Part shown: positions 5,471-32,840 of the stretch, in pieces
Numbering within the stretch: the stretch's first letter is position 1
Layout of the letters: each line of letters starts with the position of its first letter
Assembly (NCBI GenBank): GCA_017302075.1
Contig: JAFLEB010000003.1
Coordinates: 1 to 55,603, forward strand
DNA: 55,603 bases
Source: Lysobacterales bacterium
GTDB lineage: Bacteria; Pseudomonadota; Gammaproteobacteria; Xanthomonadales; Xanthomonadaceae
Direction: 5' to 3'
Made by a program: the position numbers and the translations under genes
Notes under the pieces: model-generated
The model's database searches: none
Told to the model about the DNA's origin: nothing
What the model saw: only the letters and a program-made list of their open reading frames with translations

Positions 5471-5865
5471 GTGCGTGGCTCCGAAAGGGCGGCAAGGATC
5501 GGGCAGCGTTCCAGCGCGCCATGTCCCGGGCAGGCGGTCACCAGGCCTTGCAACGCATCCCGGATTCGGGTGAGGGACTCGATCTTCTCCTCGACGTCCC
5601 GCAGCTTGGCTTGGGTCTGCGCGTTCAACGCGGCCATGTCGCCGCCGGTCAACGCGGTGAGGTTCAGCAGCTCGCGGATTTCGGGGAGGGTGAAGCCGAG
5701 GCCTTTGGCACGGCGCATGAAGCGCAGGCGATCCACGTCTGCGTCCAGGTAGTCGCGGTAGCCGGAAGCCCGGCGCGGCGGCGGCGGGATCAGACCTTCG
5801 CGCTCGTAGTACCGCACCGTATCGATGGGCACTTGGGCCCGCTTTGCCAGTTCGCCGATCTTCAT
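5467..5865 (-). CDS. cueR: MerR-family metal regulator (CueR-like)
   Basis: A 132-residue MerR-type activator with the winged helix at [26 protein letters not shown], a dimerisation helix and a C-terminal metal loop with two Cys ([10 protein letters not shown], eight residues between). At the dimer-helix position where Zn/Cd/Pb/Hg sensors carry Cys there is none, which by family knowledge favours a monovalent (Cu/Ag) sensor. The start at 5865 is chosen because it gives the usual N-terminus; an upstream in-frame ATG at 5928 would run through the promoter. It is the first gene of its unit, so it probably activates its own operon through the MerR-type promoter at 5898-5928. Confidence 0.88.
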
Positions 5866-5897
5866 GGGTTCACCTGTGGAATCTCCCTCTACGCGGA

Positions 5898-5928
5898 CTG
5901 TGCACCCTTCACCATGGTCCAGAGTCAA
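5898..5928 (-). promoter_or_regulatory. MerR-type promoter/operator of the cueR-P1B-ATPase operon
   Basis: On the minus strand a -35 TTGACT (5923-5928) and a weak -10-like GCACAG (5898-5903) are separated by 19 bp, the long spacer typical of MerR-family promoters. An imperfect dyad spans the spacer (ACTCTGGACC and GGTGAAGGGT, 7 of 10 positions symmetric). It lies about 33 bases before the regulator start. Confidence 0.6.
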
Positions 5929-11424: not shown

Positions 11425-11500
11425 GACGACTCCACATGGATCAGTGACGGCCTTGCGTAAAGGCAGGTCCGGCATGGCCAAGTAGCCCATGCACGGCAAG

Positions 11501-11942: not shown

Positions 11943-12094
11943 GGGGATAGGTTACGCCACGGCGCGGGCCTGCCATGTGAAAAAAATGTTCGCGTTGGAC
12001 AGATTCAAAAAGTCTTGCCGGAATGCCTGCCGACGGTCACATTCAGGGCAATCCGGGCCGCGGCTCACCTTTAAAAATGCAGCGAGGAACTCCC

Positions 12095-13372
12095 ATGGAG
12101 GCGGACGCCTGCGATGTGCTCTGCAATACCAGGGATCCCGAGGAACTGAACCGGCTTTGTGCGTGCACCCTGTTGGATGTCAGCCACGTCCGTGAGTCGT
12201 TGGGGACCATTGGTCCCGCCGTCCCGACCCTGGATCCAGCGTTGCATGCGCATCTGTTCTCGCCCTATGCGCTGTTCGTGCATCGGACGTCACTGGACCT
12301 CATGGGTGCTGTTGCGAACGCAGTATTCGATATCGCGCGCAATCCGAACTACGTCGACCATGTCCTGGGCTGGGCGCCCGATATCGCCCTGCATGACCCG
12401 GGTTCATTGGGCGGGGTGCTGGGGCTGGACTTCCATCTCACCGTTGCCGGCCCACGCCTGATCGAAATCAACACCAATCCTGGCGGACTGTTGCTCAATG
12501 CGCGCCTGGTTGACGCCGTGCGGTCATGCGCGCCGGCGACCTGGGTGCCGTGGACAAGCGGAGCGCAGGCGCGCGATGCGTCAGTGGCGGCATGGCTTCA
12601 GGATGCGCGGGCACAACTGGGACGGATGCCGCAGCGCATCGCGATCGTGGATGTCGCACCGCGGGAACAATTCCTCTACCCGGAGTTCGAGCTTTACGCC
12701 GAGGCGTTCAGGCAACAGGGGGTCGACAGCGTTATTTGTCCGCCCGACGCTCTGACGTTCGGCCCGGACGGGCTGGCAGACGCGGCTGGGCAGATCGACG
12801 CCGTCTACAACCGCCTGACCGACTTTGCACTCGCCGATCCAGCGTCCGCGCCACTGCAACAGGCTTACCTGGAACGTGCGATCGCGCTCACTCCGCACCC
12901 AAGGGCGCACGCATTATTCGCGGACAAGCGGAATCTGACCCCGCTCGCCGATGCCAGCCTGCTGGAGGGCTGGGGAGTGGACCCCGTCGTGGCCCACCGG
13001 CTTGCACAGGTGATCCCCTCGACTGTCGAAGTCACGCCTGAAAACCGGGACGCGTTGTGGGCGGATCGTCGCGCGTATTTCTTCAAACCTGCGACAGGCT
13101 ATGGGAGCCGCGGAACCTACCGCGGCGACAAGCTCACCCAGAGGGTCTGGAACGGCATGGCCTCCAGCTCGTACGTGGCGCAGGCGTTTGCCGCACCCGG
13201 TGTGCGCATCGTGCATGGCGGCGCCTCACTCAAGGCGGACATACGCTGTTTTGCGTCCGTATCGGGGGTGCTCATGTTTGCCGCCAGGCTGTACCAGGGC
13301 CAGACCACGAACATGCGGACGCCGGGTGGAGGATTCGCTGCGGTGCTCACCACCCCGGACGGACTGGCATGA
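12095..13372 (+). CDS. Possible circularly permuted ATP-grasp enzyme
   Basis: A 425-residue protein that I do not recognise as a named enzyme. Two ATP-grasp-like signatures appear in reversed order: EINTNPGG at 124-131, which in ordinary ATP-grasp ligases lies near the C-terminus, and a Gly-rich ATP loop KPATGYGSRG at 331-340, usually N-terminal. ALFADKRNLTPL (273-284) and DIRCF (382-386) also fit nucleotide and metal binding. Such enzymes join a carboxylate to an amine or thiol using ATP. The start at 12095 follows GAGGA 6 bases upstream; the frame is open from 12023. It is divergent from copL and converges on ackA, a lone plus-strand gene between two large minus-strand operons. Substrate unknown. 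Confidence 0.7.
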   Translation: MEADACDVLCNTRDPEELNRLCACTLLDVSHVRESLGTIGPAVPTLDPALHAHLFSPYALFVHRTSLDLMGAVANAVFDIARNPNYVDHVLGWAPDIALHDPGSLGGVLGLDFHLTVAGPRLIEINTNPGGLLLNARLVDAVRSCAPATWVPWTSGAQARDASVAAWLQDARAQLGRMPQRIAIVDVAPREQFLYPEFELYAEAFRQQGVDSVICPPDALTFGPDGLADAAGQIDAVYNRLTDFALADPASAPLQQAYLERAIALTPHPRAHALFADKRNLTPLADASLLEGWGVDPVVAHRLAQVIPSTVEVTPENRDALWADRRAYFFKPATGYGSRGTYRGDKLTQRVWNGMASSSYVAQAFAAPGVRIVHGGASLKADIRCFASVSGVLMFAARLYQGQTTNMRTPGGGFAAVLTTPDGLA

Positions 13373-13403
13373 GCCTTGGGGTTTGATTTGGCACGACTGT
13401 CGG

Positions 13404-14492
13404 TCAGATCCACGACATCGCGGATTCGGCTAGTTCGCGCTCTTCGTCCACCTGCACATTCCAGATCCCCGGCCCCATGCCGCGATCAATGCGCAAGGCC
13501 CCAGCATTGTTGCGGTCGGTATCCGGAATGAGCCCGAGCCATGCCAGGCGCGCGAAGATGCGCTCGCGCACCACCGGCGCGCGGTGGCCAATGCCCCCGG
13601 AAAAGACCAGATGATCGAGACCACCGATTCCCGTCGCCATTGCGGCAATCGCCTGAGCGATCCGTACGACGAATACCTCGAGGGCTAGGCGGGCGGCGGG
13701 CCCATCGTCTTCGATGAGCAGGCGCATATCGCCGTGGCCAGCGATTGCGGCCAGCCCCCCGTGATGAGAAAGCCGGTACTCAATGGCGTCCGCATCCAGA
13801 CCACTGTGGCGCAGCAGGTACAGCAGCACGCCGGGGTCGAGATCTCCTGAACGTGTTGGCCCCGGAATGCCGCCCAGAGGGGTCAGAGCCATTGTTGTGT
13901 CACGACTCAGGCCGTTTTCCACGGCACAAACGCTGCATCCGCCACCGAGGTGTGCGAGAACCACACGGCCTTGTCGGGTGCGAAGGTCGTGGCCGGCCAG
14001 TGTTCGCAGAGCGGAGGTGAAGGCAAGGCCATGGAAGCCATAGCGGCGGATACCCATCGCATCCCACTCCGCGGGAATGGACAGTCGCCGGCTCCATGGG
14101 GCGAGTGATGCGTGGAAGCTGGTGTCGAATGCAACGCCATGTCGGGCGTCCGGCCAGCGGGCGCGGGCCACACGGAGCAACTCAAGCGCTATTGGCTGGT
14201 GCAACGGAGCCAGCGGGGACAGGTTGTCGAGTTCTGCCAGCAGGGTGTCGTCGAGCTCGCGCCCCTGGCCGTGGGTTCCGCCGTGCACGATCCGGTGAAT
14301 CACCAGATCGGGTACCCGCCTGGGCGGAGGCAGTGCCTCTAGCAAAGCGGCGAGGCTGTCTTCCGACGGAGTCTCGCGCTTGATCTCTGCGCGCGCGTAC
14401 TCGACCAGCGTATGGGTGGCGTCAAGGTCGTAGATCGCCGCCTTGAGCGTGGTGGATCCGACGTTGAGCGCAAGCAGGGAGCGGTCCATCAC
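13404..14492 (-). CDS. ackA: Acetate kinase family protein
   Basis: A 362-residue acetate/propionate kinase, which interconverts acetyl phosphate + ADP with acetate + ATP. Family motifs are all present though varied: LALNVGSTTLK (phosphate-binding start), RIVHGGTHG, FDTSFHASL, GIRRYGFHGLAF, LAHLGGGCSV and PTRSGDLDPG. It is about 40 residues shorter than the usual 400, mostly in the N-terminal half. The start overlaps the AarF stop by 4 bp (14489-14492). As the last gene of the MerR-led operon it would harvest ATP from acetyl phosphate produced upstream in the pathway. Confidence 0.92.
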   Translation of the reverse strand: MMDRSLLALNVGSTTLKAAIYDLDATHTLVEYARAEIKRETPSEDSLAALLEALPPPRRVPDLVIHRIVHGGTHGQGRELDDTLLAELDNLSPLAPLHQPIALELLRVARARWPDARHGVAFDTSFHASLAPWSRRLSIPAEWDAMGIRRYGFHGLAFTSALRTLAGHDLRTRQGRVVLAHLGGGCSVCAVENGLSRDTTMALTPLGGIPGPTRSGDLDPGVLLYLLRHSGLDADAIEYRLSHHGGLAAIAGHGDMRLLIEDDGPAARLALEVFVVRIAQAIAAMATGIGGLDHLVFSGGIGHRAPVVRERIFARLAWLGLIPDTDRNNAGALRIDRGMGPGIWNVQVDEERELAESAMSWI

Positions 14493-16078
14493 AAATGTCC
14501 CGAACGACTGATCGCGATGACCAGGCGCAAGGACAGCACGCCCGCCGCGACGAAAGCGATGACTGCAAGCCAGGGCAGGTGCCCCAACAGCGTCGGGCCC
14601 TGGGCATGCAGCGTGAGCAATGCACCACTCACGTAAAGCCCCAGAGTGACCAATGCCAACGCGAGGCGGTTGCCGGTGCGGGCGAGCGCTTCTTGGGTGG
14701 AGTGGAGCCCGTGGTGATGCACGGAAAACGCGGGGCGGCCGTCGCTCAGTTGCGCCTGCCGCAAAAGATCCGCGACGAGCTGCGGCAACTGGCGGGCGGT
14801 GCGTGCCAGCCGCAGGGTGAGCGGGCGACCGGCGGGCCGGCTGGCATCGATCACCTGTGCGATCTCGGCCGCCCGCGATGTCAGGCTGCCGAGCAGATCG
14901 AGGTCGGGGTCGAGGGCGCGTAGGGTGTTTTCAACGAGGAACAGGGTGCGCATCAGCACCAGCAGGTGCGGTGGCAGGCGAAATGCCTCTCCCTGACCGA
15001 TGCGGGCGACCCGCCAGATCGCTTCGGCGATGGACCACTGCGCCAGCGGCCGGCTGGCCATCTCGGCCAGGATCAGGTGGATCTCTCGCACATGTGAGCG
15101 TCGCTCGACCTGTGGCGGGAAGAAACCCAAGGCGATTGCCGCATCCAGCACGCCCTCGGCGTCGTCGGCCGCGATGGCCTCGACCATGCCGCCAAGCGCG
15201 AGGCGGGAGGCAGGATCCAGCACGCCAATCGAGCCGAAGTCATGCAGGCACAGACACCCGTCCTGCAGCACGAACAGATTGCCGGGATGCGGGTCAGCGT
15301 GGAACACGCCGGCGCCGAATAGCTGATGCACATAGGCATCCAGCAAGGCGCTGGCGAGTGCCGGTGCCCCCGGGGTGCCGTACGCGGATTCCAGGTGCGC
15401 GCCTCGGCTGCGCTCCTGCACGAGGACCTCGTGTGCGACGAACGGATCGATGACGTGCGGTAGCGTGACCGGTGCCAGCGGGTCGATGACCGAGGCCATG
15501 CGGCGCATGTTCTGTGCTTCGTGCCGCATATCGATCTCGTTACGCAGGAAGCCCGCCAACTCGTCCGCGAGCTCCAGCGGGCGCTGGCGCTTCAGCGGGG
15601 GCCACAGCCACTGGCCGATGCGCAACGTGCGCCGCAGCAAGCGCAGATCCGCCTCCACCTGCGCCTGGATGCCCGGCCGGGTGATCTTGACGACGACGTC
15701 GCGACCGTCGTGGAGGCGTGCGGTGTGGATCTGCGCGACCGAGGCGGCTGCAAGCGGGATCCCATCGAAGTGCGCGAACAGGCGTTCGATGGGTTGACCG
15801 AAGGCGCGTTCGACCGTGCCGATTGCCTGGTCGCCGGGAAACGGCGGCACATTGCTGTGCAGGCGAGCGAGCGCCTCGCGGTAAGGCGCCGGCAACAAAT
15901 CCCAGCGCAGGCTCAGGCCCTGCCCCAGCTTGACGAACGTGGTGCCCAGCCCGGCCAGGGTAGCGCCCACCCGTGCTGGCAACTGCTCGGGCGTCCGCCG
16001 TCGCAACCGCAGGAAATCCACTCCGAGCCGCAAGGCTGCCCATGCGATCTGCAGGCCCCGCCGGACCGTCCCCCTCAT
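14489..16078 (-). CDS. AarF/UbiB (ABC1) family kinase-like protein
   Basis: A 529-residue atypical kinase with the family hallmarks FVKLGQGLSLR (KxGQ at 50-53), EIDMRHEAQNM (ExD), FHADPHPGNLF (catalytic loop) and LHDFGSIG (DFG-like). Two hydrophobic helices close the C-terminus, giving a membrane anchor. The chromosomal UbiB acts in ubiquinone synthesis, and island copies like this one are widespread but of uncertain role; ATPase activity towards membrane lipids or quinones is plausible. It overlaps its neighbours by 1 and 4 bp, so it belongs to the same transcript. Confidence 0.88.
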   Translation of the reverse strand: MRGTVRRGLQIAWAALRLGVDFLRLRRRTPEQLPARVGATLAGLGTTFVKLGQGLSLRWDLLPAPYREALARLHSNVPPFPGDQAIGTVERAFGQPIERLFAHFDGIPLAAASVAQIHTARLHDGRDVVVKITRPGIQAQVEADLRLLRRTLRIGQWLWPPLKRQRPLELADELAGFLRNEIDMRHEAQNMRRMASVIDPLAPVTLPHVIDPFVAHEVLVQERSRGAHLESAYGTPGAPALASALLDAYVHQLFGAGVFHADPHPGNLFVLQDGCLCLHDFGSIGVLDPASRLALGGMVEAIAADDAEGVLDAAIALGFFPPQVERRSHVREIHLILAEMASRPLAQWSIAEAIWRVARIGQGEAFRLPPHLLVLMRTLFLVENTLRALDPDLDLLGSLTSRAAEIAQVIDASRPAGRPLTLRLARTARQLPQLVADLLRQAQLSDGRPAFSVHHHGLHSTQEALARTGNRLALALVTLGLYVSGALLTLHAQGPTLLGHLPWLAVIAFVAAGVLSLRLVIAISRSGHL

Positions 16079-16365
16079 CAGTGCACTCCCTCAATCCAGC
16101 GCCACGCGCCCCAGCCGGCCATCGCGGCGATCCCGATCCAGCACAGGATGTAAAGCCACTGCCAGATCGCCGGCAAGGACCCGCCGTGGCGCTCCAGGCG
16201 ATGCCGCGCCGTCATGCCAACGGCGTGGGCAAGCATGCCCGTTGCGAACACCGGCGCCACCACCGGCAGTACCGCATCCGCGAACCAGGCGCCCGCCGCC
16301 ACGCCGGCGACCGCCGCCCCGGCAAGCGAGAGAAGGTCGGCACGTTTGCGCGCGCGGATCGGCAT
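16078..16365 (-). CDS. Small membrane protein
   Basis: A 95-residue protein with three hydrophobic stretches (LSLAGAAVAGVAAGAWF, LPVVAPVFATGMLAHAVG and the C-terminal LYILCWIGIAAMAGWGAW) and a basic N-terminus (MPIRARKRAD). The start at 16365 lies 2 bases after the stop of the phosphoketolase-like gene and the stop overlaps the aarF start by one base, so the gene is well embedded in the operon. No function is recognised. A partnership with the following AarF-like membrane kinase is possible from position alone. Confidence 0.7.
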   Translation of the reverse strand: MPIRARKRADLLSLAGAAVAGVAAGAWFADAVLPVVAPVFATGMLAHAVGMTARHRLERHGGSLPAIWQWLYILCWIGIAAMAGWGAWRWIEGVH

Positions 16366-16367
16366 GT

Positions 16368-18833
16368 TCACCGCACGACTCCGGAAGCAGGATGCAGCAG
16401 CGTGTCGGGCGCGCCGCAACCGTCAATCGCCGCGAGCTCGTCGTTTGCAAGCAGCAGCGCGCGCGCGACACCCATGACGTGCGCCGCTGCGTCGATGACG
16501 TGCGCCCATGTGCACCGGTTCGCGAACAGCAGGCCTGGCACGTCAAGCGTCCCGCCACGGTTGATGAACCCCAATGCGGTGGTGGTGGCCGGTCCAGTAT
16601 CCAGCCGGCGCAGGGCGCCGAGAAACGGTTCCGGGCGGGTGTGGGTCAGGAACACACGCGGCTTGCCGCGTGGAAACAGTGCCCGTAGGTGCGCGTCGGC
16701 ATGCGTATAGCGAGCTTCGGCTGCATCTCGCGGAGCGCGATAACGCGCCGGCTCCCCCAGATAGATGACGGCAGCGGACATGTTGTGTGCGGCTAGACGC
16801 GCCTGCGCGCGAAGCACCTCCTGCAACTGGTAGGCACCGGTGGCGACGAGAAGAAGCTTGGCCGTGGCGGGATCGCCCGTCAGTAACACAGCGCCCGTTG
16901 CCGCGAGTTCCTGGGCCTGGTCTGTGGTCAGGACCTGCGGCACTGCCCGCTTGGGCACCACCAGCGCGGTGACAGTGCCGCGCTGCGCATACGCATGCGA
17001 CAACGCCGCAGCAGCACCGTTGGCGTCGGGAGGAAACACGACGCGCGAGACATCCGCCATTTCCGCGAGAAGGGCTTCCGCCATGGTCGGATCCTGGTGG
17101 GATTGCTCGTTCTTGGCGTTTTCCCAGGTGTGTGAGGTCATCACTAGCGGAACACCCAGCCAACCGGGCGGGCGCCCGGCCTGCGCCAGGTGTCGCGCAA
17201 AGATCAGTTCCTGGCGCACGGCGCCCAGCATCTTCGGCGCGAACGCTTCGTAGGTGACGACTAGGTTAAGCCCACCCTTGTTCCCGAGCGCCGCGCACAC
17301 CACGGCTTCCTCGTTCAGTGCGGTAATCACGCCGCCGGTCGTGGATTCAGCGACGCCCGGTTCCGGCACCTGGACCCGATGCTTTTGCGCATCCAGGGTC
17401 TGGTCGAGCTTGTTGCTGCGCAGTTCATCCGGATTGCCAACCCGTACCCGCAATGCCGGATTCGCGGCGGCGATTCGCATGAACTGCTCATCGACGGCCA
17501 CCATCGGCGAACTTGCCGTGCCGGGAGTTTGCGGCGCGATCGGGGAAGCCTCCGTCAGCGCCACCTCCCGATTGGCGAGCACATGATCCCGCTCCCGCAT
17601 TCGCTTCTGGCTCGCGTGCGTGTTGAGCGCGACAATGGCTGCGTCCAACTCCTGGCCTGGGACGAACAAGCTCGCGGCGCCCTCGTTGAATAGCGCGCGT
17701 GCCTGCGCGTCTCGGGCAGGATTGCCGGGCAAAGGCAGGTTGTGGGCGGCATTGGTGCCGGCGCCCGGGAACCCGTAGCCCTTGACCGTTTCCGCGATGC
17801 CATAGGGCAGGCGGATGTCTCCCGAGTGCGAGCTTCCGTAAGCCTGCAGCCCTGCCTCCATCACATGGATGCCCCAGGCGATGCTGGCCGGATCGCGGCC
17901 GTCCAGCGAAACGGGGTCGAAGCCATTGAGGCGAAGGTGCCAGTCCAGCCAGCGTTCGCCACCTTGCTGGGTGATCTGGCTGCGCTGTTCGATACGTCGT
18001 CCGTTGAGGATCATGATCGGGCTGACCAGTCCACTGTCCTCGGCCCGCCACCAGCGGGGCGCCCAGTCGCCGCCGCGTTGCTCCTCGAAGGCGCCGTCGC
18101 TGAGGAACGCGACCAGCCGCTCGCCCTTGAGTGGCGCATGCACGTATTGCAGTTCGGCAAAACCCAGGTAGCCGCCCTCCAGCACACCACCCGCGGTATG
18201 CGCGTTGACGTGGGAACCCAGGGGCGAAGCCGGGGTGCCGTCGGCATTGAGGGTATAGGCATAAAAATCGCCGACAAAGCGGCTCAGACCAGCGTCGGAG
18301 CGGTCGTAGCGGGCAGCGTGCGCCGTGGTCATGTTGCCCACCAGCAGGTTGAGCGCATCGATCGCGGCAACGCAATGCCCCTGGCCCATCATCCACGCGC
18401 GGGTCACGCCATCAAGGGCGTCCATGAGCAGATAGCCCACGTACGCGGGCACCATGTTCAGCGAGCCTCCCGTGTGGCCTTCCGGCGTGGGCTTAAACTC
18501 ATCCGCCTCGAGCACCGAGCCATCCGTTCGCACCTTGGAGGCATAGGTCATGTGCGCGACCAGCCACATCCCTGCACTGGCGACTCGATCGGCGGCCGCG
18601 AGTCGCTTCCAGCCTGTTCGTGCATCGGGGATACGGCCCGATGCGACGAGCTCGTCCATCATTTCGCGGACGCGCACCTGGGTAAGCGGATCGTGCCGGA
18701 CCACGCCGTAACCCGCCGCCCAGTGCGCGAACGCGGGATCCGTCAGTCGCTGTGAGGCAGCCAGATCAACGATCTGCTGGCGGGCCGTGGGATCAAGCTC
18801 GTCGGCAGTGCAACAATTGCGGGGCAGGTTCAT
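16368..18833 (-). CDS. Divergent phosphoketolase-family (XFP-like) thiamine-diphosphate enzyme
   Basis: An 821-residue protein of the usual phosphoketolase length and organisation. Canonical phosphoketolases split xylulose-5-phosphate (or fructose-6-phosphate) with phosphate to acetyl phosphate and an aldose phosphate. Equivalents of the family motifs can be seen but are altered: MGQGHCVAAID (149-159) where GPGHGGPA is expected, EGGYLGFAE (219-227) instead of EGGELGYSL, and SDGAFEEQRGGDW (245-257) with NGRRI (277-281) instead of the GDGEAETG..NGYKI thiamine-diphosphate site. The cofactor site is probably kept, but the reaction may differ. The start overlaps the prs-like stop by 4 bp. Acetate kinase two genes on supports acetyl phosphate as product. 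Confidence 0.85.
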   Translation of the reverse strand: MNLPRNCCTADELDPTARQQIVDLAASQRLTDPAFAHWAAGYGVVRHDPLTQVRVREMMDELVASGRIPDARTGWKRLAAADRVASAGMWLVAHMTYASKVRTDGSVLEADEFKPTPEGHTGGSLNMVPAYVGYLLMDALDGVTRAWMMGQGHCVAAIDALNLLVGNMTTAHAARYDRSDAGLSRFVGDFYAYTLNADGTPASPLGSHVNAHTAGGVLEGGYLGFAELQYVHAPLKGERLVAFLSDGAFEEQRGGDWAPRWWRAEDSGLVSPIMILNGRRIEQRSQITQQGGERWLDWHLRLNGFDPVSLDGRDPASIAWGIHVMEAGLQAYGSSHSGDIRLPYGIAETVKGYGFPGAGTNAAHNLPLPGNPARDAQARALFNEGAASLFVPGQELDAAIVALNTHASQKRMRERDHVLANREVALTEASPIAPQTPGTASSPMVAVDEQFMRIAAANPALRVRVGNPDELRSNKLDQTLDAQKHRVQVPEPGVAESTTGGVITALNEEAVVCAALGNKGGLNLVVTYEAFAPKMLGAVRQELIFARHLAQAGRPPGWLGVPLVMTSHTWENAKNEQSHQDPTMAEALLAEMADVSRVVFPPDANGAAAALSHAYAQRGTVTALVVPKRAVPQVLTTDQAQELAATGAVLLTGDPATAKLLLVATGAYQLQEVLRAQARLAAHNMSAAVIYLGEPARYRAPRDAAEARYTHADAHLRALFPRGKPRVFLTHTRPEPFLGALRRLDTGPATTTALGFINRGGTLDVPGLLFANRCTWAHVIDAAAHVMGVARALLLANDELAAIDGCGAPDTLLHPASGVVR

Positions 18834-19744
18834 GGGGTCTCCCGGGAAACGGCGCTGGATTCCATCAGCGCTGACGCCGCCAGCCCGATCTCGTTTCCGA
18901 GCGGGATCGCATTCGAGGGGTGGGCGATCGTGTCCGAGCTCACGATTCTGGCTAAGCCTGCGGCTTGCAGCGATGCATAGGCATCCCCTGCAAAGACGGG
19001 ATGGATCGCCACCAGCACCGGAGGCGATGCCACCAGGCGTTGCAGATGCACAACGGTTTCCAGAATCGTGTGCCCCGACGAGACGATGTCGTCCACCAGC
19101 ACCGGGGTACGCCCCGCCGCGGCTTGCGCATCTGGGAGACTGACCCGCACGTCGTAGTCGCCTTGCCGCTGTTTTCGAAGAACCTGATAAGGCACGCCGG
19201 CCTTCACGGCGATGCGTGCCACCCACTGCTCGCTTTCGCTATCGGGCCCGATGAGGATTGCGTCGGGCACGGCGTCGGCAATCCAAGCCGCGACGGCGGT
19301 CGTGGCAGAAACGTGGGTTGTGGGAATGCGATACAGCGCCTGCAACTGCTCGAATCGGTGCAGGTGCGGATCGACGGTAAGCAGCCAGTCGAACGTCTCT
19401 TCAAGGAAACGGGCGAACAACGGCGCGCTGACCGCCTCGCCCGGGTGGAAGCGTGTGTCCTGCCGCATGTAGGCAAGATACGGCGCAATCAGGCCGACGG
19501 AGCGCGCACCGAACTCGCGGGCTGTCTGCGCTGCGAAGCGCAAAGGCAGGGCGAGCGGATCGGGATCCCGCAGGCTGGCCAGGATCGCCACATCGGCGCC
19601 GGCCAATGCGTCGTCCAAGGCGACCAGCGACTCGCCATCCGGGAAGTGCCGCCAGGCCACGGGTGCAATGCGCGCCTGCAGGGGCTCGGCGATGGCGGAT
19701 GCCAACAGTGCATCGGCCGGGAAGGGCATCAGCACACGGTTCAT
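18830..19744 (-). CDS. Ribose-phosphate diphosphokinase (PRPP synthetase)-like protein
   Basis: A 304-residue member of the PRPP synthetase family, which interconverts ribose-5-phosphate + ATP with PRPP + AMP. Motifs: FPDGES (34-39), LIAPYLAYMRQDTRFHPGE (85-103), VDPHLHR (124-130), IGPDSESEQW and the PRPP-binding loop VLVDDIVSSGHT (215-226). Some regulatory and catalytic residues of housekeeping Prs differ (VDDIVSSGHT for VDDMIDTGGT), so this is a specialised paralogue. It lies between an AMP-phosphorylase-type gene and the phosphoketolase-like gene with 4-bp overlaps on both sides, which suggests a catabolic rather than biosynthetic role, for example handling ribose-1,5-bisphosphate or PRPP. 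That direction is inference. Confidence 0.88.
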   Translation of the reverse strand: MNRVLMPFPADALLASAIAEPLQARIAPVAWRHFPDGESLVALDDALAGADVAILASLRDPDPLALPLRFAAQTAREFGARSVGLIAPYLAYMRQDTRFHPGEAVSAPLFARFLEETFDWLLTVDPHLHRFEQLQALYRIPTTHVSATTAVAAWIADAVPDAILIGPDSESEQWVARIAVKAGVPYQVLRKQRQGDYDVRVSLPDAQAAAGRTPVLVDDIVSSGHTILETVVHLQRLVASPPVLVAIHPVFAGDAYASLQAAGLARIVSSDTIAHPSNAIPLGNEIGLAASALMESSAVSRETP

Positions 19745-21258
19745 GGCGCCTCCGCGAGGACAAAGGGTTGCAACGCCGCGGCGTGGTCCAGGGCATAGGC
19801 AAGCTCCCCCGGCGACTCCGCGTGCAGGGTTAGCAGGGGTTGTCCGCGCTCCACCGTGTCGCCGATCCGCAGGCCGGTTTCCAGGCCGGCGGTGGGGGAT
19901 GTCGGTGCGCCGGCCAGCTTGGCCAGCTTGGCCAGCCTGCGGTTGTCGATCTCCGCAATGCGGCCCGATGCGGGTGCCGGGACATCGGCGGTGAACGCCG
20001 CCCGCGGCGGTTCGCGGAAGCCTCCCTGGGCGTCGCAGATCGCCAGGAACTTGGCCAGCGCAGCGCCGGAATCCAGCACGCTGCGCGCGCGCTGCAGTCC
20101 TGTGCCAGCGCTGCTGCCCGGCGCCATGTCCAGCAGCCCGGCGGATAGCGCAAGCGCGCGGTCGCGCAGGTCGGCCGGTGCATCGGCGGCATTGCGCAGC
20201 ACCTTGAGCACATCGTGCGCCTCGAGCGCCGGGCCAATGCCCCGCCCCACTGGCTGGGCGCCGTTGGAGCGATGGATGCTCAACTGCAAACCAAGCGCGC
20301 CCGCGGTGTGGGCAAGCCGCGAGCCGAGGCTGTCAGCCGCGGCATCACTCCGCACCTTGGCGGTCGGGCCCACCGGCATGTCGATCAGGACGTGGGTCGA
20401 GCCGGCCGCCACCTTCTTCGACAGCACGCTGGCGACCAGTTGCCCGTCGCTGTCGAAGTCCAGCGGCCGCTGGATCCGAATGAGGATGTCGTCGGCTGGG
20501 CTCAGACGCACGTTGCCCCCCCAGACGATGCAGCCGCCTTCGAGTTCCACCACGCGACGCATCGCCGCCAGGTCCAGCGCTACCGGCGCCATCACTTCCA
20601 TGGTGTCGGCGGTGCCCGCAGGCGACGTGATCGCGCGCGACGACGTCTTCGGGATGCGATAGCCCAGCGCGGCCACAATCGCCACCACGATCGGGGTGGT
20701 GCGATTGCCGGGCAGGCCGCCCACGCAGTGTTTGTCCAGTACCGGCCCCTTACCCCAGTCCAGGCGCTGGCCCACCGAGATCATGGCCCGCGTCAGAGCG
20801 GTGGTTTCCGCACCGTCCAGGCGGTCGCCTGCGCTAGTCGTGACGAACGCGGCCAGCTCCAGATCCGACAACCTGCTTTCCATCACGTCCTGCACCAGCG
20901 CGAGGTACTGCGCATCGTCCAGCCGCGCGCCGAACACCTTGGCTCGGAGCGCACCTGCGGACGCGGCGGGCTCCGCATGCCGAACCCAGGCCAATGCACC
21001 AGTCATGGGATCGAGCAGGGCCCAAGCGACCTCCGACAGCGCCACCTCGCCCAAGCCGACCCGATCGTCGACGACCACGTTCAGCGTCGCCACCAGCGTA
21101 CGCGTGCCGACGTCCAGCCTCACGCGCGTCATCGCGGCAAAGCCTTCCGAGCGACAGACTTCGCAGTCACGATGCATGTAGACCACCGGCTGCTGGTAGG
21201 TATCGATGCCGGCGCGTGTAACGCGCAGCCGCGTGTGGCCTGGGGTATGCGTGGTCAT
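19741..21258 (-). CDS. Thymidine phosphorylase family, AMP-phosphorylase type
   Basis: A 505-residue nucleoside/nucleotide phosphorylase. The long form with an extra N-terminal domain and the signatures DKHCVGGLPGNRTTP (175-189) and KTSSRAITSPAGTAD (204-218) match archaeal-type AMP phosphorylases better than the 440-residue DeoA. Those enzymes convert a nucleoside 5'-monophosphate and phosphate to the base and ribose-1,5-bisphosphate. The C-terminal domain (PAPASGRIAEIDNRRLAKLAKLAG, GLRIGDTVERGQPLLTLHA) is the usual pyrimidine-phosphorylase end. Its start overlaps the RNase stop by 4 bp, so the enzyme that could make nucleotides is encoded just before it. Confidence 0.88.
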   Translation of the reverse strand: MTTHTPGHTRLRVTRAGIDTYQQPVVYMHRDCEVCRSEGFAAMTRVRLDVGTRTLVATLNVVVDDRVGLGEVALSEVAWALLDPMTGALAWVRHAEPAASAGALRAKVFGARLDDAQYLALVQDVMESRLSDLELAAFVTTSAGDRLDGAETTALTRAMISVGQRLDWGKGPVLDKHCVGGLPGNRTTPIVVAIVAALGYRIPKTSSRAITSPAGTADTMEVMAPVALDLAAMRRVVELEGGCIVWGGNVRLSPADDILIRIQRPLDFDSDGQLVASVLSKKVAAGSTHVLIDMPVGPTAKVRSDAAADSLGSRLAHTAGALGLQLSIHRSNGAQPVGRGIGPALEAHDVLKVLRNAADAPADLRDRALALSAGLLDMAPGSSAGTGLQRARSVLDSGAALAKFLAICDAQGGFREPPRAAFTADVPAPASGRIAEIDNRRLAKLAKLAGAPTSPTAGLETGLRIGDTVERGQPLLTLHAESPGELAYALDHAAALQPFVLAEAP

Positions 21259-22640
21259 TGCGCCTCCTCCAGTGCAACCCGCTCCAGGTGCTCCGGTACG
21301 CGCGCGTGCCAGCCCAGCTCGCGTTGCACCCGCCCGCGCAGCGTGTCGGCTGCGTCGGGCTCGCCGTGGGTGAGGTAGACGATGCGCGGCGCGGACGGCG
21401 CGGTGCGCATCCAGTCCAGCAACTCGCCGGCGTCGGCGTGGCCGGAAAACCCTTCAAGCTGCACCACCTCGGCGCGGATCGGCACCTCTCGGCCGAACAT
21501 GCGCAACGTGCGCTTTCCTGCCGCCAGCGCCGCGCCGCGTGTTCCGCCGGCCTGGTAGCCCGCCAGCAGGATCGCGTTGCGGTCATCCTGGCCGAACGCT
21601 TCGACGTGGTGCAGCACGCGCCCGCCGGTGATCATGCCGCTGGCCGAAATGAGGATCATCGGGCCGCGCTGGCGGTTGAGCGCCTTGGACTCCTCCACCG
21701 TGTTGACGAAGGTGGCCAAGTCGAACATCCGCTGGCAGTCTTCTTTGGACACATGGTGTTCGGAATGGTGGGCGTGGTAGAGCCCGGTGGCGTTGACCGC
21801 CATCGGACTGTTGAGATAGACCGGTATCCGGGGGATCTCATCGCGCTCGCGCAGTCGGGCGATATGCAGCATGAGTGCCTGGGCGCGACCGACGGCGAAT
21901 GCCGGGATGACGATCACCCCACCACGGGCGGCCACCCGGCGGATGATCGGCGCGAGTTCCGCCTCCTGGTCGATCACAACGTGTTCCCGATTGCCATAGG
22001 TGGATTCGCAGACCAGCACGTCGCAGGCAGGCAGCGGGGTCGGCGGGTTCATCAGCGACTCCTGCTGCCGCCCCAGGTCGCCACTGAAATGCAGGCGCTG
22101 GCCCTGGACGTCGAGACTGACGTGGGCGGCCCCCAGGATATGGCCGGCGGGATGGAAGCGGACCGTGAAGCCGGGCGCGATCTCGATCTCGCGCTCGTAG
22201 TCATGTCCGGTGAGCTGCTTCAGGCTGCGCCGGGCGTCGTCTTCCGTGTAGAGCGGTAGCGGCTCCTCATGCTTGGAATAGCCTTTGCGCGCCGCGTACT
22301 TTGCCTCTTCTTCGAGCAGGTGCCCGCTGTCGGGGAGCAGCAGGCCACACAAGGCGACGCTGCCGTCGGTGCAGTGGATCCGGCCGCGGAACCCCTGTTT
22401 GACCAGTGCGGGCAGGTAGCCCGAATGGTCCAAGTGGGCGTGGGTCAGGATCACCGCATCGATTGATGCCGCGTCGACGGGAAACGGTGCCCAGTTGCGC
22501 TCGCGCAGCTGTTTGTAGCCCTGGAACAGGCCGCAGTCGACCAGCACGCGCTGGCCATTGGCCTCGACCAGATAGCGCGAGCCGGTGACCGTGCCCGCGG
22601 CGCCGAGGAATTGCAGGGTGGGGCTGGTTTCGTTGTTCAT
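21255..22640 (-). CDS. MBL-fold beta-CASP ribonuclease
   Basis: A 461-residue metallo-beta-lactamase/beta-CASP hydrolase of the RNA-processing (CPSF73/YSH1-like) type. The zinc site is seen in THAHLDHSG (66-74), FHPAGHILGAAH and SGDLGR, and the beta-CASP motifs in VIPAFAVGRAQ, LISASGMITGGR and EGFSGHAD. Such enzymes cut or degrade RNA. The start at 22640 follows AGGAG; the frame is open from 22727 inside the ATPase gene. It lies 22 bases after the P1B-ATPase gene and overlaps the AMP-phosphorylase-type gene by 4 bp, so RNA breakdown feeding nucleotide phosphorolysis is a reasonable reading. Confidence 0.92.
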   Translation of the reverse strand: MNNETSPTLQFLGAAGTVTGSRYLVEANGQRVLVDCGLFQGYKQLRERNWAPFPVDAASIDAVILTHAHLDHSGYLPALVKQGFRGRIHCTDGSVALCGLLLPDSGHLLEEEAKYAARKGYSKHEEPLPLYTEDDARRSLKQLTGHDYEREIEIAPGFTVRFHPAGHILGAAHVSLDVQGQRLHFSGDLGRQQESLMNPPTPLPACDVLVCESTYGNREHVVIDQEAELAPIIRRVAARGGVIVIPAFAVGRAQALMLHIARLRERDEIPRIPVYLNSPMAVNATGLYHAHHSEHHVSKEDCQRMFDLATFVNTVEESKALNRQRGPMILISASGMITGGRVLHHVEAFGQDDRNAILLAGYQAGGTRGAALAAGKRTLRMFGREVPIRAEVVQLEGFSGHADAGELLDWMRTAPSAPRIVYLTHGEPDAADTLRGRVQRELGWHARVPEHLERVALEEAQ

Positions 22641-22662
22641 GGGTGCTCCTGTGGGTTGACGG

Positions 22663-25056
22663 CTACGCTGCGGCATTGGCGGAGGTAGATGAGGGAACCG
22701 CGTCGTTGCGCGGGGCCAGCCGAACACGGCGCAGCAGTAGTGCGTTGACCGCCACGATGACCGAGCTTCCGGACATCGACAGCGCGGCGATCTCGGGCGA
22801 CAGCACGAACGGATAGAACACGCCGGCCGCGAGCGGGAAGGCCAGCACGTTGTAACCCACGGCCCAGCCGAGGTTCTGGTGCATCTTGCGCAGGGTGGCC
22901 CGGGCGATGGAGGTCGCGCGCACGACGTCGTAGGGGTCGCTGTGCATGAGCACGATGTCGGCGCTCTCGATGGCGACGTCCGTGCCGGCGCCGATCGCGA
23001 AGCCGACGTCGGCCTGCGTCAGCGCCGGTGCGTCGTTGATGCCGTCGCCCACCATGCCGACCTTGAGGCCCTGCGACTGCAGCTTGATGACCTCGTCGGA
23101 CTTGCCGCCAGGCAACACGTCTGCCAGTACGATGTCGATCCCCAGATCCTGAGCTACGCGTTCGGCGGTGGGGCGATTGTCGCCGGTGATCATCGCCACT
23201 CTGATGTTGCGACGATGCAGTTCGTCGATGGCGGCGCGCGAGGTCTCGCGGATCGCGTCGGCAATTGCGAAGAAGCCCGCAAGCTCGCCGCCTACCCCTG
23301 CATAGATCACGGTGCGGCCGGCGCCGGTAAGGCGCGCGGCCTCCGCTTCCAGCACGGATAGATCGATTCCGTGTTCGACCATCAGGATGCGATTGCCCAG
23401 CAGGACCTGCACCCCGTCAACCACCCCGGTGGCGCCCTGGCCGTCGATGTTGGTGAAGGCCGTAGCGCGTTCGGCTGCTGGACCGGCGCGCTTGAGGATC
23501 GCTTGCGCCAGCGGGTGCTCCGAATGCGCCTCGACCGCAGCGGCCGTGGCCAGTAGCCGCTCCTGCGTCCAGCCCGGTGCGACCGCCATGTCGACCACCT
23601 CCGGTGCACCGACCGTCAGGGTTCCAGTCTTGTCAAAGATCACAACGTCCAGCCGGGCGCTCTTCTCGATGGCTTCGGCGTGTTTGAACAGAATGCCGTG
23701 TCGAGCGCCCAGGCCCGTGCCGATCATGATCGCCATCGGGGTGGCCAAACCCAGTGCGTCGGGACAGGCAATGACGAAGACGGTGATCGTCAGCGTGAGC
23801 GCGAACATGAGCGGCTGTCCCAGCCACCAGAACCAGACCGCGAAGGTCAGCAGCCCGATCACGATCGCGGCCAGCACCAGCCACTGCGAAGCGCGGTCGG
23901 CGAGCAGTTGCGCAGGCGCCTTGGAGTTCTGTGCGGTCTGGACCAGCTTGATGATCTGCGCCAGCGCGGTATCGCTGCCGATCTTGGTGGCGGTGTAGGC
24001 AAATGCACCGCTCTTGTTGATCGATCCGCCGACAACGGAGGCCCCTGGGTCTTTGCGCACGGGCATCGACTCGCCGGTCAGCATGGATTCGTCGACCTGG
24101 GAGCTGCCTTCAGTGACGGTGCCGTCGACGGGGATCTTCGCCCCCGGCCGCACCACGACGATATCGCCGACCAGGACTTCGGCGGTCGGGATGTCGAGCT
24201 CCTGTCCGTCACGGCGCACCACCGCGCGGGGCGGGGACAGCTTCAACAACGCCTTCATCGCGTCCGAAGCGCCGGCGCGTGCCCGCATCTCGAGCCAGTG
24301 GCCGAGCAGGACGAAGGTCAGCAGAACCGCCGAGGCCTCGTAGAAGTTCGGTCCGTCGAAGAAGAACGTCGACGCGATGCTGAACCCGTAGCCGGTGCCC
24401 ACGCTCAGCAGCACCAGCACCGCCATGTCCAGCACGCCGCGGCGCAGCGAACGAATCGCCGCACTGAAGAACGGCCAGCCCGGATACAGCACGGCGCCGG
24501 TCGCCAGCAGGAACAACCAGACGTTCTCGCGCAGTCCAAACGGCACCGGCGGCGGCTCCATCAGGCCGCCCATGGGCGACCACACGAATACCGGGATCGC
24601 GAAGGCGAGGGCGACCAGGAAGCGGCGGCCCATGTCGCGCGCCGCGGCGTGCAGATCGCTGCCGTGGTTCATGCCCGCATGGGCGTCGTGACCCCCGGCA
24701 TCCTTGGCGTCATCGCCGTGGCCGGCGTGGGCGTCGGCAGGGTGCTCCGCGGTGGTACCCGGTCCGTGCCGGGCATGCGCAGCGTGGGCGTGCGTGCCTG
24801 CGCCCGGGCCGGCAGCGGGCATCGAGGCGTCGCATTGGAAGCCGCAGTCGCGGATCGCGGTGGCGACCGCGCCCGACGACAGTCGGGCCGGGTCGTAGGA
24901 CACCTGCAGGGTCGCGGTGGCGAAATTCGCGATGGTGGCGTTGACTCCGGGCAACGCGGCCACGGCCCTCTCCAGCGTGCGCGCGCAGCCGGCACTCACC
25001 ATGTCGCCGATGGGCCAGGTGCGCGTGCGCACTGGCGGTTCGTGGACGTGTGTCAT
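22663..25056 (-). CDS. P1B-type heavy-metal ATPase with CPD motif and degenerate HMA domain
   Basis: A 797-residue metal-exporting ATPase. The N-terminus is an HMA fold (residues about 10-75) in which the usual CxxC is reduced to S21-A-G-C24, followed by a His-rich linker ([41 protein letters not shown]). The membrane metal site reads C431-P-D433 instead of CPC or CPH. DKTGT has its Asp at 475; SEHPLAQAI and [10 protein letters not shown] are intact, so the pump looks functional. The changed membrane motif predicts an ion preference different from classical Cu(I) pumps. It is the fourth gene of the MerR-led operon and overlaps the methyltransferase-like gene by 4 bp. Confidence 0.93.
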
Positions 25057-25718
25057 CGGACTTCTCCCTGGGATGGGGCGGGGCCGCGCCTGCGTATCGG
25101 AATGAAGGCCGGCACGTGCTGCATGTAGCGGACGTACTCGTCGCCGAAGCGGCCCAGGCAGTCCTTTTCCTCACGGCGCGCCAGGCGGGCATAGGCCCAC
25201 ACGAGCACCGGATAGCTGGCGAGCGTGAGCAGCGTGGGCCACTGCAGCAGGAAACCGGTCAGCACCAACACGAAAGCGACGTACTGCGGGTGGCGCATGC
25301 GCGCATACACGCCGTCTCGGGCCATCCGGCCCTCACGCTGCGCCCGATACAACACTGGCCAGGCGGCCGACAGCAGCCAGAAGCCACCGCCGATCAGGAC
25401 GAAGCTCGCCATGTGGAATGGACCAAAATGCGGATTGGCGCGCCAGCCGAACCACATCTCCAGCAGATGGCCCGCGTCATGGCTGAGCCAGTTCACTTGC
25501 GGATAATTGGCACTGAGCCACCCGCCCAGGACGTACAACGTCAGCGGGAAGCCATACATTTCCGCGAACAGGGCCACGACGAAGGCGGAGAACATCCCGA
25601 ACCCCCGCCAGTCCCAGCGGGTCAAGGGCTTGTAGAAGCTCCAGGCGAAGAAGATGAAGAACGCGGCGTTGATGGCGGCCAGCAGCCAAAGGCCGTAGCC
25701 GGAGTCGGGTGCCTGCAT
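25053..25718 (-). CDS. Isoprenylcysteine/phospholipid methyltransferase-like membrane protein
   Basis: A 221-residue protein with four to five membrane helices and the C-terminal motif of the ICMT/PEMT-like family ([27 protein letters not shown], with RHPxY, and a closing [17 protein letters not shown]). Family members transfer methyl groups from S-adenosylmethionine to lipids or other membrane substrates; the substrate is unknown for copies in metal clusters. The start lies one base after the stop of the DUF2933 gene, and the stop overlaps the ATPase start by 4 bp. Confidence 0.82.
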
Positions 25719-25719
25719 G

Positions 25720-26034
25720 TCAGTGCCCTCCGTTCGAGGTGTCGGACGTTTCGTCGTTCAGTGCCCGCTTGCTACGGCTCTCATGCTGGCCATGGGGTGT
25801 GTCGTCGGCATTGCCGTCGCGCCCATGACTTCCGGAACCTCCATGACCGCCATGCCCCTTGTGCATGAACACATGCATCAAGGGACATAGCAGCAGGATG
25901 GCCAGGGGCAACCAGCGAAGCGTCCCCCCAAGGTGGGCGCGGTGCTCGACGGCGAGATAGAACACGGCCAGCGCCAGGAAGATCCAGAAGACCCAGCGTC
26001 GGGAGCCTGAGGGGGCAGGACTGGAGGCTGTCAT
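25720..26034 (-). CDS. DUF2933 small membrane protein, His-rich
   Basis: A 104-residue protein with two membrane helices (VFWIFLALAVFYLAVEH and WLPLAILLLCPLMHVFMH) and a His/Gly-rich C-terminal tail (HKGHGGHGGSGSHGRDG). The central CPLMHxxMH element is typical of DUF2933 proteins of copper/mercury islands. The tail may bind metal. The start overlaps the regulator stop by 4 bp (26031-26034). Function unknown. Confidence 0.82.
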   Translation of the reverse strand: MTASSPAPSGSRRWVFWIFLALAVFYLAVEHRAHLGGTLRWLPLAILLLCPLMHVFMHKGHGGHGGSGSHGRDGNADDTPHGQHESRSKRALNDETSDTSNGGH

Positions 26035-26543
26035 GGCAAATTCTCCTCTGTGGGGCGGCGTCCAAGAAGTCGCCGCGGGGTGGACTTGACGAACCCGCCG
26101 CCTTCAGCAGCGGCAACAGATTCGATCAATGCGCAGACGTCATCGCCAGTCGGAATGGAGTCCGGAAGCTCCGCCCAGGCGTGGATGGCACGCTCCATTC
26201 GTCCGTGCATGGCGAGCAGCCTGTCCAGTTGTTGGCGGGTGTCGTCGAGCCTGCGCCGAATGATGTCCCGCACAAGCGGACAGGGACTATGTCGCAGCAG
26301 GCTGTGGTGGATGATTTCCTCGATTTCCCCCAGCGTGAAGCCAAGGTGTTGCGCCGTGCGAATGAAGTGCAGGCGAAGGAGCTCCGAGGTGGAGAACAAC
26401 TGGTAGCCGCCCTCGGTATGCGTGGCCGCTTGCAACAGACCGCGCCGCAGGTAGTTGCGCACCACATGCACCGTGACATCGCCCTGCCGTGCCAGCTGGC
26501 GGACCGTCATCAGCGGCAGCGTCACTTCTTCCTTGGTCGTCAT
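26031..26543 (-). CDS. MerR-family regulator, MerD-like
   Basis: A 170-residue MerR-type protein. Its DNA-binding half (VTVHVVRNYLRRGLL, EGGYQLFSTSELLRLHFIRTA) closely resembles MerD of mercury operons, while the rest is longer and resembles metal-sensing MerR proteins. One Cys (C88, in HSPCPLVRDI) sits where Zn/Cd/Pb/Hg sensors carry the dimer-helix Cys, and another (C137, DDVCALIES) near the C-terminal metal loop. This suggests a divalent-metal sensor, unlike the regulator at 5467. It is the first gene after the promoter at 26571-26601 and so probably controls its own eleven-gene operon. A start at codon 12 is possible but less conserved. Confidence 0.82.
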   Translation of the reverse strand: MTTKEEVTLPLMTVRQLARQGDVTVHVVRNYLRRGLLQAATHTEGGYQLFSTSELLRLHFIRTAQHLGFTLGEIEEIIHHSLLRHSPCPLVRDIIRRRLDDTRQQLDRLLAMHGRMERAIHAWAELPDSIPTGDDVCALIESVAAAEGGGFVKSTPRRLLGRRPTEENLP

Positions 26544-26570
26544 CGGCTTGCTCCCGGCGAGGTGTTGATC

Positions 26571-26601
26571 AGGCTAGACCTGTGTCTCGCACACAGGTCA
26601 A
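26571..26601 (-). promoter_or_regulatory. MerR-type promoter/operator of the eleven-gene operon
   Basis: On the minus strand a -35 TTGACC (26596-26601) and a -10 TAGCCT (26571-26576) are separated by 19 bp, the MerR spacing. The spacer contains a perfect 9-bp inverted repeat, gacctgtgt (26577-26585) and acacaggtc (26591-26599), with a 5-bp centre. It ends 27 bases before the regulator start. This is the clearest regulatory site in the window and marks the 5' end of the transcript that ends with ackA. Confidence 0.8.
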
Positions 26602-26715
26602 CCGGCCTTGCGGTGGGCGAAGCCAGTAACGCGCGAATTGGCCGTAGACGGACGGATGTTCGCGGCCACAGTTGCATGAACCGTCGGTCCCTGCCTGCGT
26701 TGAACGGCCCCATCA

Positions 26716-29865: not shown

Positions 29866-29866
29866 G

Positions 29867-32715: not shown

Positions 32716-32840
32716 ATCAGTGTCCTTGGGCCGACGCGACGCAGTCGCTCGGCCGGGGCAGGAACACATGCCGTGACGCGCACGGCACGAACGCACAGCA
32801 CTGCACCGCACAGGCGTGCGGCGCAGTCAGCATTCGGGCA

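Follow-up and report, generated by a model that had tools for sequence, protein, structure and literature searches.

A run of eleven minus-strand genes (13404-26543) behind a MerR-type promoter (26571-26601) places metal export genes directly ahead of genes for nucleotide and pentose-phosphate enzymes in a Lysobacterales bacterium of the Xanthomonadaceae. The run lies in a stretch of 55,603 nucleotides, hereafter the window (GenBank assembly GCA_017302075.1, contig JAFLEB010000003.1, positions 1 to 55,603, forward strand), one of the 225 contigs that make up a 2.77-Mb assembly, 86.8% complete. The eleven-gene cluster with its metal-metabolic junction is real, conserved, and beyond chance. The interpretation favored here, to which somewhat less than an even chance is given, is that the run is an operon switched on by metal, carried by a mobile copper island, and joins export to a bypass of phosphoribosyl pyrophosphate (PRPP) and pentose-phosphate metabolism, its induction by metal and the activities of its enzymes being predicted.

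Organization and promoter of the operon

Gene content, gene order, and promoter sequence were read directly from the DNA, and families were assigned with Pfam and NCBIfam for ten of the eleven genes, the eleventh encoding a 97-aa protein. In the direction of transcription the features are:

26571-26601, minus: MerR-type promoter/operator, TTGACC-19 bp-TAGCCT, with dyad ACCTGTGT-N5-ACACAGGT, kept in 29 of 31 relatives
26031-26543, minus: MerR-family regulator (family profiles), cysteines in SPCPLVRDI and DDVCALIE
25720-26034, minus: DUF2933 protein (PF11666)
25053-25718, minus: ICMT/PEMT-type membrane methyltransferase-like protein (Pfam/NCBIfam)
22663-25056, minus: P1B-ATPase with CPD motif, MSGSS, and degenerate HMA (SAGC) (Pfam and motifs)
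21255-22640, minus: beta-CASP ribonuclease (RNase)-type protein (Pfam; nearest solved structure RNase TTHA0252)
19741-21258, minus: AMP-phosphorylase-type enzyme, AMPp (NF003338 and TIGR02645 over cut-off, TIGR03327 below)
18830-19744, minus: PRPP-synthetase-type enzyme, PRS (the genome's second copy; no cysteine; GPDSESEQW stretch)
16368-18833, minus: divergent phosphoketolase-type enzyme, XFP (Pfam XFP, XFP_N)
16078-16371, minus: small, probably membrane protein (no family match)
14489-16078, minus: AarF/UbiB-type kinase-like protein (Pfam/NCBIfam)
13404-14492, minus: acetate-kinase-type enzyme, AckA (PF00871)

Adjacent genes overlap by 1-4 bp at eight of the ten junctions. The overlap is 4 bp at MerR/DUF2933, methyltransferase/P1B-ATPase, RNase/AMPp, AMPp/PRS, PRS/XFP, XFP/small gene (GTG start), and UbiB/AckA (GTG start), and 1 bp at small gene/UbiB; the remaining junctions have gaps of 1 bp (DUF2933/methyltransferase) and 22 bp (P1B-ATPase/RNase). 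This 22-bp gap is the very one that separates the ATPase from the RNase, and visual inspection shows nothing in it but a Shine-Dalgarno-like ribosome-binding stretch. A scan of 13200-26750 found no sigma-70-type promoter on either strand (16-18 bp spacer, a definition that does not include the 19-bp MerR promoter) and no terminator-like site at the P1B-ATPase/RNase junction. Four terminator-like sites were present against 6.1 expected, and the sole one on the minus strand (20298-20314) lies inside the AMPp gene. An earlier note on this DNA had described these eleven genes in this order, mostly overlapping and led by a MerR-type promoter, and had named a promoter or terminator between the metal and metabolic genes as the observation that would speak against a joint operon; the layout and the promoter are borne out, and the scan revealed no such divide. 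In locus L022 (9484-11619; L-numbers are labels of fetched related loci) and in many Lysobacteraceae loci, a second, CPH-type P1B-ATPase gene stands between UbiB and AckA; it is absent from the window.

Promoters of MerR-controlled operons have a 19-20 bp spacer with a dyad and stand beside the MerR gene. The window promoter fits this class, with its 19-bp spacer and perfect 8-bp dyad, and it ends 27 bp before the MerR gene, which is thus the first gene of its own operon. The operator pattern has one site within 3 mismatches in the window (shuffled mean 0.10) and marks a single place in the genome, the second listed match being the same dyad on the opposite strand. The 19-bp-spaced promoter and dyad are retained in 29 of 31 MerR relatives (score >200, fetched loci), with none in L058 and L068. 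Furthermore, in L060 (duplicated as L196) both dyad arms have changed together, CTGCGT with ACGCAG, which preserves the dyad.

Conservation and linkage of the gene set

Gene neighborhoods were compared in two sets of 80. The AMPp similarity set comprises the best 80 of 242 relatives found in one scan and is biased towards the window's own kind, while the family-chosen set (NF003338) joins 46 neighborhoods from a phylum search (46 of 47 places outside the window's own genome, one short contig being omitted) with 34 from a class search (34 of 79 places, picked mostly for long contigs), a few genomes being in both samples. A metal marker was scored where a P1B-like ATPase (>400 bits), a CusA-type pump (>900 bits), or DUF2933 (>30 bits) lay within 10.5 kb; because any such protein counts, some metal labels may mean metals other than copper. 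The pairs L196/L060 and L199/L080 are the same contigs entered twice and several genomes repeat named loci, so that locus counts include a few duplicates.

All 80 similarity loci carry PRS, and most carry RNase (72), a P1B-type ATPase (69), DUF2933 (58), or any metal marker (74); phosphoketolase (47), UbiB (43), and AckA (37) are less constant. The earlier note had asked whether the gene set recurs in other genomes. The metal-metabolic junction proved to be widely conserved, with MerR, DUF2933, P1B-type ATPase, RNase, PRS, and XFP found together in 33 of the 80 loci. Among these best 80 AMPp relatives, 31 are 90-94% identical to the window enzyme; they occur in Lysobacter, Luteimonas, Thermomonas, Stenotrophomonas, Pseudoxanthomonas, and Dokdonella and reach Neopusillimonas and an Acetobacteraceae bin, with more distant relatives in Mesorhizobium and roseobacters. 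Within the genus, a full-strength AMPp match is present in 5 of 25 genomes, the own genome included. Close relatives scattered across genera, together with this patchiness within the genus, form the pattern of a mobile accessory unit, as judged from distribution.

The linkage was also approached from the other genes. In the order, 9 of 299 genomes contain the ATPase type of the window, at 10 places. An RNase gene follows within ~1.5 kb at 8 of these places, one being the window itself; as for the other two, L247 shares its contig with L059, where the RNase comes further on, and L251 has none in view. The XFP type was found in 13 of 396 genomes of the phylum (14 places). Four of its 13 non-window places are beside PRS, two have a neighboring P-type ATPase (in the one checked, L256, the best score is for the calcium type), and seven adjoin an RNase gene in divergent orientation, their flanks of ~1.5 kb being free of AMPp and PRS.

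In the family-chosen set, PRS stands beside AMPp in 39 of 46 phylum and 33 of 34 class neighborhoods (72 of 80 in total), RNase is present in 19 and 3, and metal markers in 6 and 3 (9 of 80), so that AMPp-PRS is seen as an old pair, usually without metal. Metal markers accompany 6 of the 22 neighborhoods with RNase versus 3 of the 58 without it (Fisher p 0.011, a value that ignores kinship). On a quick AMPp tree of 158 rows, in which long branches were flagged, the metal label changes at least 11 times, as gains or losses that are not distinguished, versus 52.5 in shuffles.

Among 62 well-flanked metal-linked loci, 42 have phosphoketolase, 34 of them with AckA as well. The remaining 20, including Mesorhizobium and roseobacter loci, carry RNase-AMPp-PRS without phosphoketolase, and the minimal metal-linked set thus argues for PRPP, acetyl phosphate being an extra. 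In roseobacters (L088:1300-7757, L097:4101-5447), FabI-type, cardiolipin-synthase-type, Rieske, and CBS-BON genes lie upstream of an RNase-AMPp-PRS-copper ATPase run, another metabolic set beside copper export.

The enzymes and the possible fate of ribose-1,5-bisphosphate

The families named in the earlier note agree with Pfam and NCBIfam, with two amendments: the cluster sits in a larger copper island, and both AMPp and the phosphoketolase-type protein are divergent and fall short of some curated cut-offs. AMPp, aligned to PDB 4ga5, exceeds the cut-offs of TIGR02645 and NF003338 and scores 433.8 bits for TIGR03327, below the AMP-phosphorylase equivalog cut-off of 535. XFP exceeds the Pfam gathering scores (XFP 135.2, XFP_N 39.7), lies far under the cut-offs of NCBIfam models, and keeps in its alignment the His and Glu stretches that we take to be catalytic. 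AckA reaches 227.6 bits for PF00871 and 221.1 for TIGR00016 (cut-off 293.4), and its alignment to 4dq8 keeps HR, FDT, GFHG, and TRSGDLDPGV; the RNase alignment likewise keeps the family motifs. PRS is over cut-off for NF005537 and TIGR01251 and, aligned to 1u9y, keeps the RQD, DPH, and DD stretches. The genome holds a canonical Prs (382 bits), which reads PDVGGVVRA, and the island copy (172 bits), which has no PDxGGxxRA stretch; GPDxESx[QPS][WL] is found in 149 of 153 AMPp-linked PRS partners, the window reading GPDSESEQW.

Ribose-1,5-bisphosphate (R15BP) is the expected phosphorylase product, and enzymes that might take it further were sought in 65 genomes (45 with AMPp and 20 without). R15P isomerase (TIGR00511) was over cut-off in none of the 65, the own genome included, with weaker matches in 37. 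PhnN was over cut-off in 17, and its best match in the own 86.8%-complete assembly was 45.8 bits against a cut-off of 156. Thus, no known enzyme was found that would feed R15BP to the phosphoketolase. The archaeal route from AMPp through R15P isomerase to Rubisco was dropped on the same TIGR00511 result; Rubisco (PF00016) matches 23 of the 65 genomes, with a partial 56-bit match in the own genome (G000:C180:4671-5180).

In four genomes PhnN and AMPp share one open frame (L201:8330-10429, L202:9121-11274, L203:9161-11476, L204:8648-10576), and all four fusions exceed the cut-offs of both NF003338 and TIGR02322, the PRPP-forming 1,5-bisphosphokinase. A quinolinate-phosphoribosyltransferase-type gene, a PRPP user by family, lies just upstream of two of them, the other two neighborhoods having been partly scanned. 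Because PhnN is fused to AMPp, there is good evidence from these reading frames that the phosphorylase product is destined for PRPP in the fusion lineages. No paper turned up in a literature search that combined PhnN, thymidine phosphorylase, and phosphonate. By far the commoner arrangement is a PRPP-synthetase relative that adjoins AMPp, in PhnN's place.

Copper and PRPP synthetase

The available portions of a study in Staphylococcus aureus report that copper raises ribose-5-phosphate and ribulose-5-phosphate and lowers PRPP by about half, that 2 uM Cu(I) cuts the activity of purified Prs 7-fold and 5 uM abolishes it, and that more prs brings more copper tolerance, GapA being cited as another target (PMC10249872). 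The window PRS has no cysteine. In the main metal-linked PRS clade (83 rows, including 2 duplicates; 6 rows have no metal marker in view) the mean is 1.0 cysteine, with none in 35 rows; the 18 sister rows average 4.06 and the 50 deep rows 4.3. When each 80% cluster is represented by one row, cysteine makes up 0.57% of PRS in the main clade, compared with 1.35% and 1.45% for two metal-poor groups, whereas no such decrease is seen in AMPp of these loci (1.42, 1.33, and 0.99%). Low cysteine in PRS, a feature of one clade, fits an enzyme hardened against copper.

Low-oxygen relatives of the metabolic genes

In the parts available of two studies of Bradyrhizobium diazoefficiens, bll3117-bll3116-bll3115 (thymidine-phosphorylase family, PRPP synthetase, metallo-beta-lactamase [MBL] fold) and bll2518-bll2517 (phosphoketolase, acetate kinase) form predicted operons (PMC9104804, PMC6515984). 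Both have FixK2 boxes and members that fall in a fixK2 mutant (PMC9104804), and operon members rise in microoxia (PMC6515984). These FixK2 targets share the AMPp-type, PRS, MBL-fold, phosphoketolase, and acetate kinase families with the window; unlike the window, the genes form two operons under low-oxygen control, in the order AMPp-PRS-RNase and with no metal genes in those operons. Because the same families are FixK2-dependent and microoxia-induced there, a role in emergency metabolism under failing respiration is supported. As far as the available text goes, Pseudomonas aeruginosa PA3613 (phosphoketolase) and PA3614 (metallo-beta-lactamase superfamily) are listed in an Anr/anaerobiosis low-oxygen table (PMC8575079). 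They resemble the phosphoketolase/MBL pair seen divergently in 7 fetched loci, whose flanks, unlike the window, lack AMPp and PRS.

At 8 of 9 places without AMPp or PRS, a region of 250 bp around the XFP 5' end contains a TTGAT-N4-ATCAA-like box (up to 2 mismatches), against 0.38 expected from shuffles; the count was first made in regions chosen after the matches had been seen and was repeated in this fixed region, and some of the loci are close relatives. Among the divergent phosphoketolase/beta-CASP RNase pairs L258 and L260-L265, a low-oxygen-type box lies near the phosphoketolase start in 6 of 7. Around AMPp operon starts, a TTGA-N6-TCAA box (up to 1 mismatch) was found in 34 of 80 regions against 10.85 expected from simple shuffles, and L174 and L176 carry the Bradyrhizobium bll3117 box ATGATCTGGGTCAA before AMPp. 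No TTGA-N6-TCAA box within 1 mismatch occurs at the window promoter (26450-26720). Since relatives have such a box and the window promoter does not, a metal switch seems to have taken the place of an oxygen switch for the same families.

The surrounding copper island

The cluster forms the central part of a larger copper island, in which CusCBA lies upstream on the same strand (26716-32811) and CopAB downstream:

31393-32811, minus: outer-membrane efflux protein in CusC position (family profile)
29867-31396, minus: CusB-type adaptor (family profile)
26716-29865, minus: CusA-type pump, closer to CusA than to ZneA
12023-13372, plus: 449-aa gene convergent with AckA, no Pfam/NCBIfam match, homologues in 29 of 80 loci clustered
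9553-11499, minus: CopA multicopper oxidase (TIGR01480 over cut-off)
8441-9682, minus: CopB (PF05275)
5467-5928, minus: second MerR-family regulator (ZntR, MerR, and CueR models, all under cut-off)
3029-5470, minus: second P1B-ATPase (copper subfamily model over cut-off)

Against solved structures, the pump scores 1183 bits for CusA and 545 for ZneA, and methionines of the window pump align with M573, M623, and M672 of CusA, presumably its copper sites. Downstream there is also a CopM-like protein that scores under its cut-off. The right flank holds type I restriction-modification genes, with a HATPase-domain gene beside them (43910-51246), and a type II/IV secretion ATPase. A plasmid origin was considered and rejected: 19 plasmid records match, none of them across >80% of the query. 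No RNA family reached its gathering threshold anywhere in the window.

A proposed bypass and competing explanations

In the favored interpretation, entering metal would cause the local MerR to open the single 19-bp-spaced promoter, and the whole run would be transcribed. The P1B-ATPase, DUF2933, and methyltransferase-like proteins would form an export arm beside CusCBA and CopAB, while the beta-CASP RNase and AMPp might convert RNA to nucleotides and these to base and R15BP. The cysteine-poor PRS would restore PRPP, either as a copper-tolerant isozyme working from ribose-5-phosphate or by a PhnN-like step. With PRPP synthetase and GAPDH blocked, pentose phosphates would accumulate; XFP and AckA would draw these off and yield acetyl phosphate and then ATP without GAPDH or respiration. 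The metabolic half may have been recruited from an older low-oxygen module. Induction by metal, every enzyme activity, and the role of each step in this scheme are predicted from sequence, and the bypass does not account for UbiB, the small protein, or the methyltransferase-like protein.

The bypass is favored by the conserved operator and the run undivided by any signal in the scan, the copper context, the two-way linkage, the fusions, the Cu(I)-sensitive Prs of S. aureus, the cysteine-free second PRS, the low-oxygen co-regulation published for these families, and the family motifs retained in PRS, XFP, AckA, and RNase. Several observations weigh against it. AMPp fails the AMP-phosphorylase equivalog cut-off, and we know of no PRPP synthetase that uses R15BP. 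Copper is not certain to be the inducing metal: MerR sensors have three cysteines and CueR two C-terminal ones, while the two cysteines of the window regulator are kept in most relatives compared and match neither set, Trp or Ala standing in a region, beyond the end of the PDB alignments, that is equated here with the first C-terminal cysteine of the MerR and CueR sensors. The metal is thus not settled by sequence, and the C-terminus seems to fit no known sensor class. Metal was not the first function of the AMPp-PRS pair, as 71 of the 80 family-chosen neighborhoods have no metal marker. The cysteine depletion is that of one clade, close to one event, so the significance tests are not independent; five metal-linked rows of the sister group keep 2-4 cysteines, and the RNase share is also slightly lower (1.15, 1.35, and 1.65%). 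Cys 91 (window numbering, just before RQD), the single position with the strongest signal, is present in 43 of 50 deep rows, and all 83 main and all 20 sister rows lack it; it is a clade marker, and a copper-specific loss was rejected because the sister group, mostly metal-free, is without it too. Finally, Prs inhibition is known from the S. aureus enzyme and not from this PRS class or these hosts.

The bypass is nevertheless rated above each alternative. A more far-reaching form of it is unlikely, namely metal resistance by target bypass, in which the operon would supply a copper-tolerant route to PRPP fed by the cell's own RNA, and PRS, through an activity new for relatives of PRPP synthetase, would stand in for PhnN and turn R15BP into PRPP, or R15BP and AMP into ADP and ribose-5-phosphate. 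The RNA-to-ATP scavenging proposed by the earlier note, which would run from RNA through nucleotides, ribose phosphates, and acetyl phosphate to acetate and ATP, with PRS working backwards or passing the 1-phosphate of R15BP to AMP, is considered rather unlikely. Its setting in failing respiration agrees with the published FixK2 and Anr tables, in which these enzyme families occur; at 7 of the 13 non-window phosphoketolase places the RNase and the divergent phosphoketolase adjoin, and the flanks of these 7 hold neither AMPp nor PRS; the low-oxygen-type box lies within 125 bp of the phosphoketolase 5' end at 8 of the 9 places scored. However, its chain breaks at R15BP, for which no enzyme leading into pentose phosphates was found in the genomes searched, and ATP as a constant endpoint does not survive the 20 of 62 metal-linked loci without phosphoketolase and the PhnN fusions, which point to PRPP.

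The same FixK2 and Anr control, together with the excess of TTGA-N6-TCAA-like boxes and the bll3117 box in L174 and L176, might instead indicate a general module for failing respiration, a low-oxygen cassette with a new switch, for which copper would be one block among several and no copper-specific adaptation would be expected. This is unlikely, since the window promoter has no such box and PRS cysteine depletion marks a mostly metal-linked clade. Accretion, whereby a mobile island would have picked up a foreign metabolic operon downstream of its efflux operon with little functional coupling, would suit the patchy distribution in the genus and the several gene orders. It is judged improbable in view of the overlapping genes, the two-way linkage, the metal-linked copies in Mesorhizobium, roseobacters, Alcaligenaceae, and Lysobacterales, and the changes of metal label on the AMPp tree, even though these may be gains or losses.

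Comparison with known systems

In the accessible portion of the paper on rhizobial P1B-3 ATPases, subtype VIc, described from three rhizobia, has CPD in TM6 and MSGSS in TM8 (PMC5552934). The operon ATPase has both, CPD standing where CPC or CPH is usual, and differs by a His-rich stretch, N-terminal histidines being few in that account, whose main text nowhere uses the terms thymidine, phosphoketolase, or pyrophosphokinase. The archaeal AMP phosphorylase/pentose bisphosphate pathway, as far as the available text describes it (PMC9700705), shares the phosphorylase family and the expected R15BP; the window differs in having a PRS-type partner in place of an R15P isomerase. In the part available of a uranium study thymidine phosphorylase rises, but not within an operon of the window type. 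A literature search, with most subscription journals outside it, found no description of a combined copper-metabolic operon.

If the bypass is correct, a mobile operon that also replaces or goes around poisoned central metabolism would be a further strategy of copper resistance, and it would match PRPP synthetase, a central enzyme recently shown to be a copper(I) target. The findings suggest that some bacteria may survive copper by going round blocked reactions, besides pumping. The operon type occurs in water and soil bacteria, which may use it to regenerate a ribose building block and ATP out of RNA and pentoses. Testable functions are also offered for the AMPp-PRS pair of bacteria and for the RNase-phosphoketolase pair that belongs to low-oxygen regulons, both of them widespread units. 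To our knowledge, copper resistance has so far been described as export, oxidation, or binding. Known copper islands with cus and cop genes carry CusCBA, CopAB, P1B-ATPases, and a MerR regulator. The window island has all of these in common with them and differs from them in that nucleotide and pentose-phosphate enzymes are encoded within the efflux operon.

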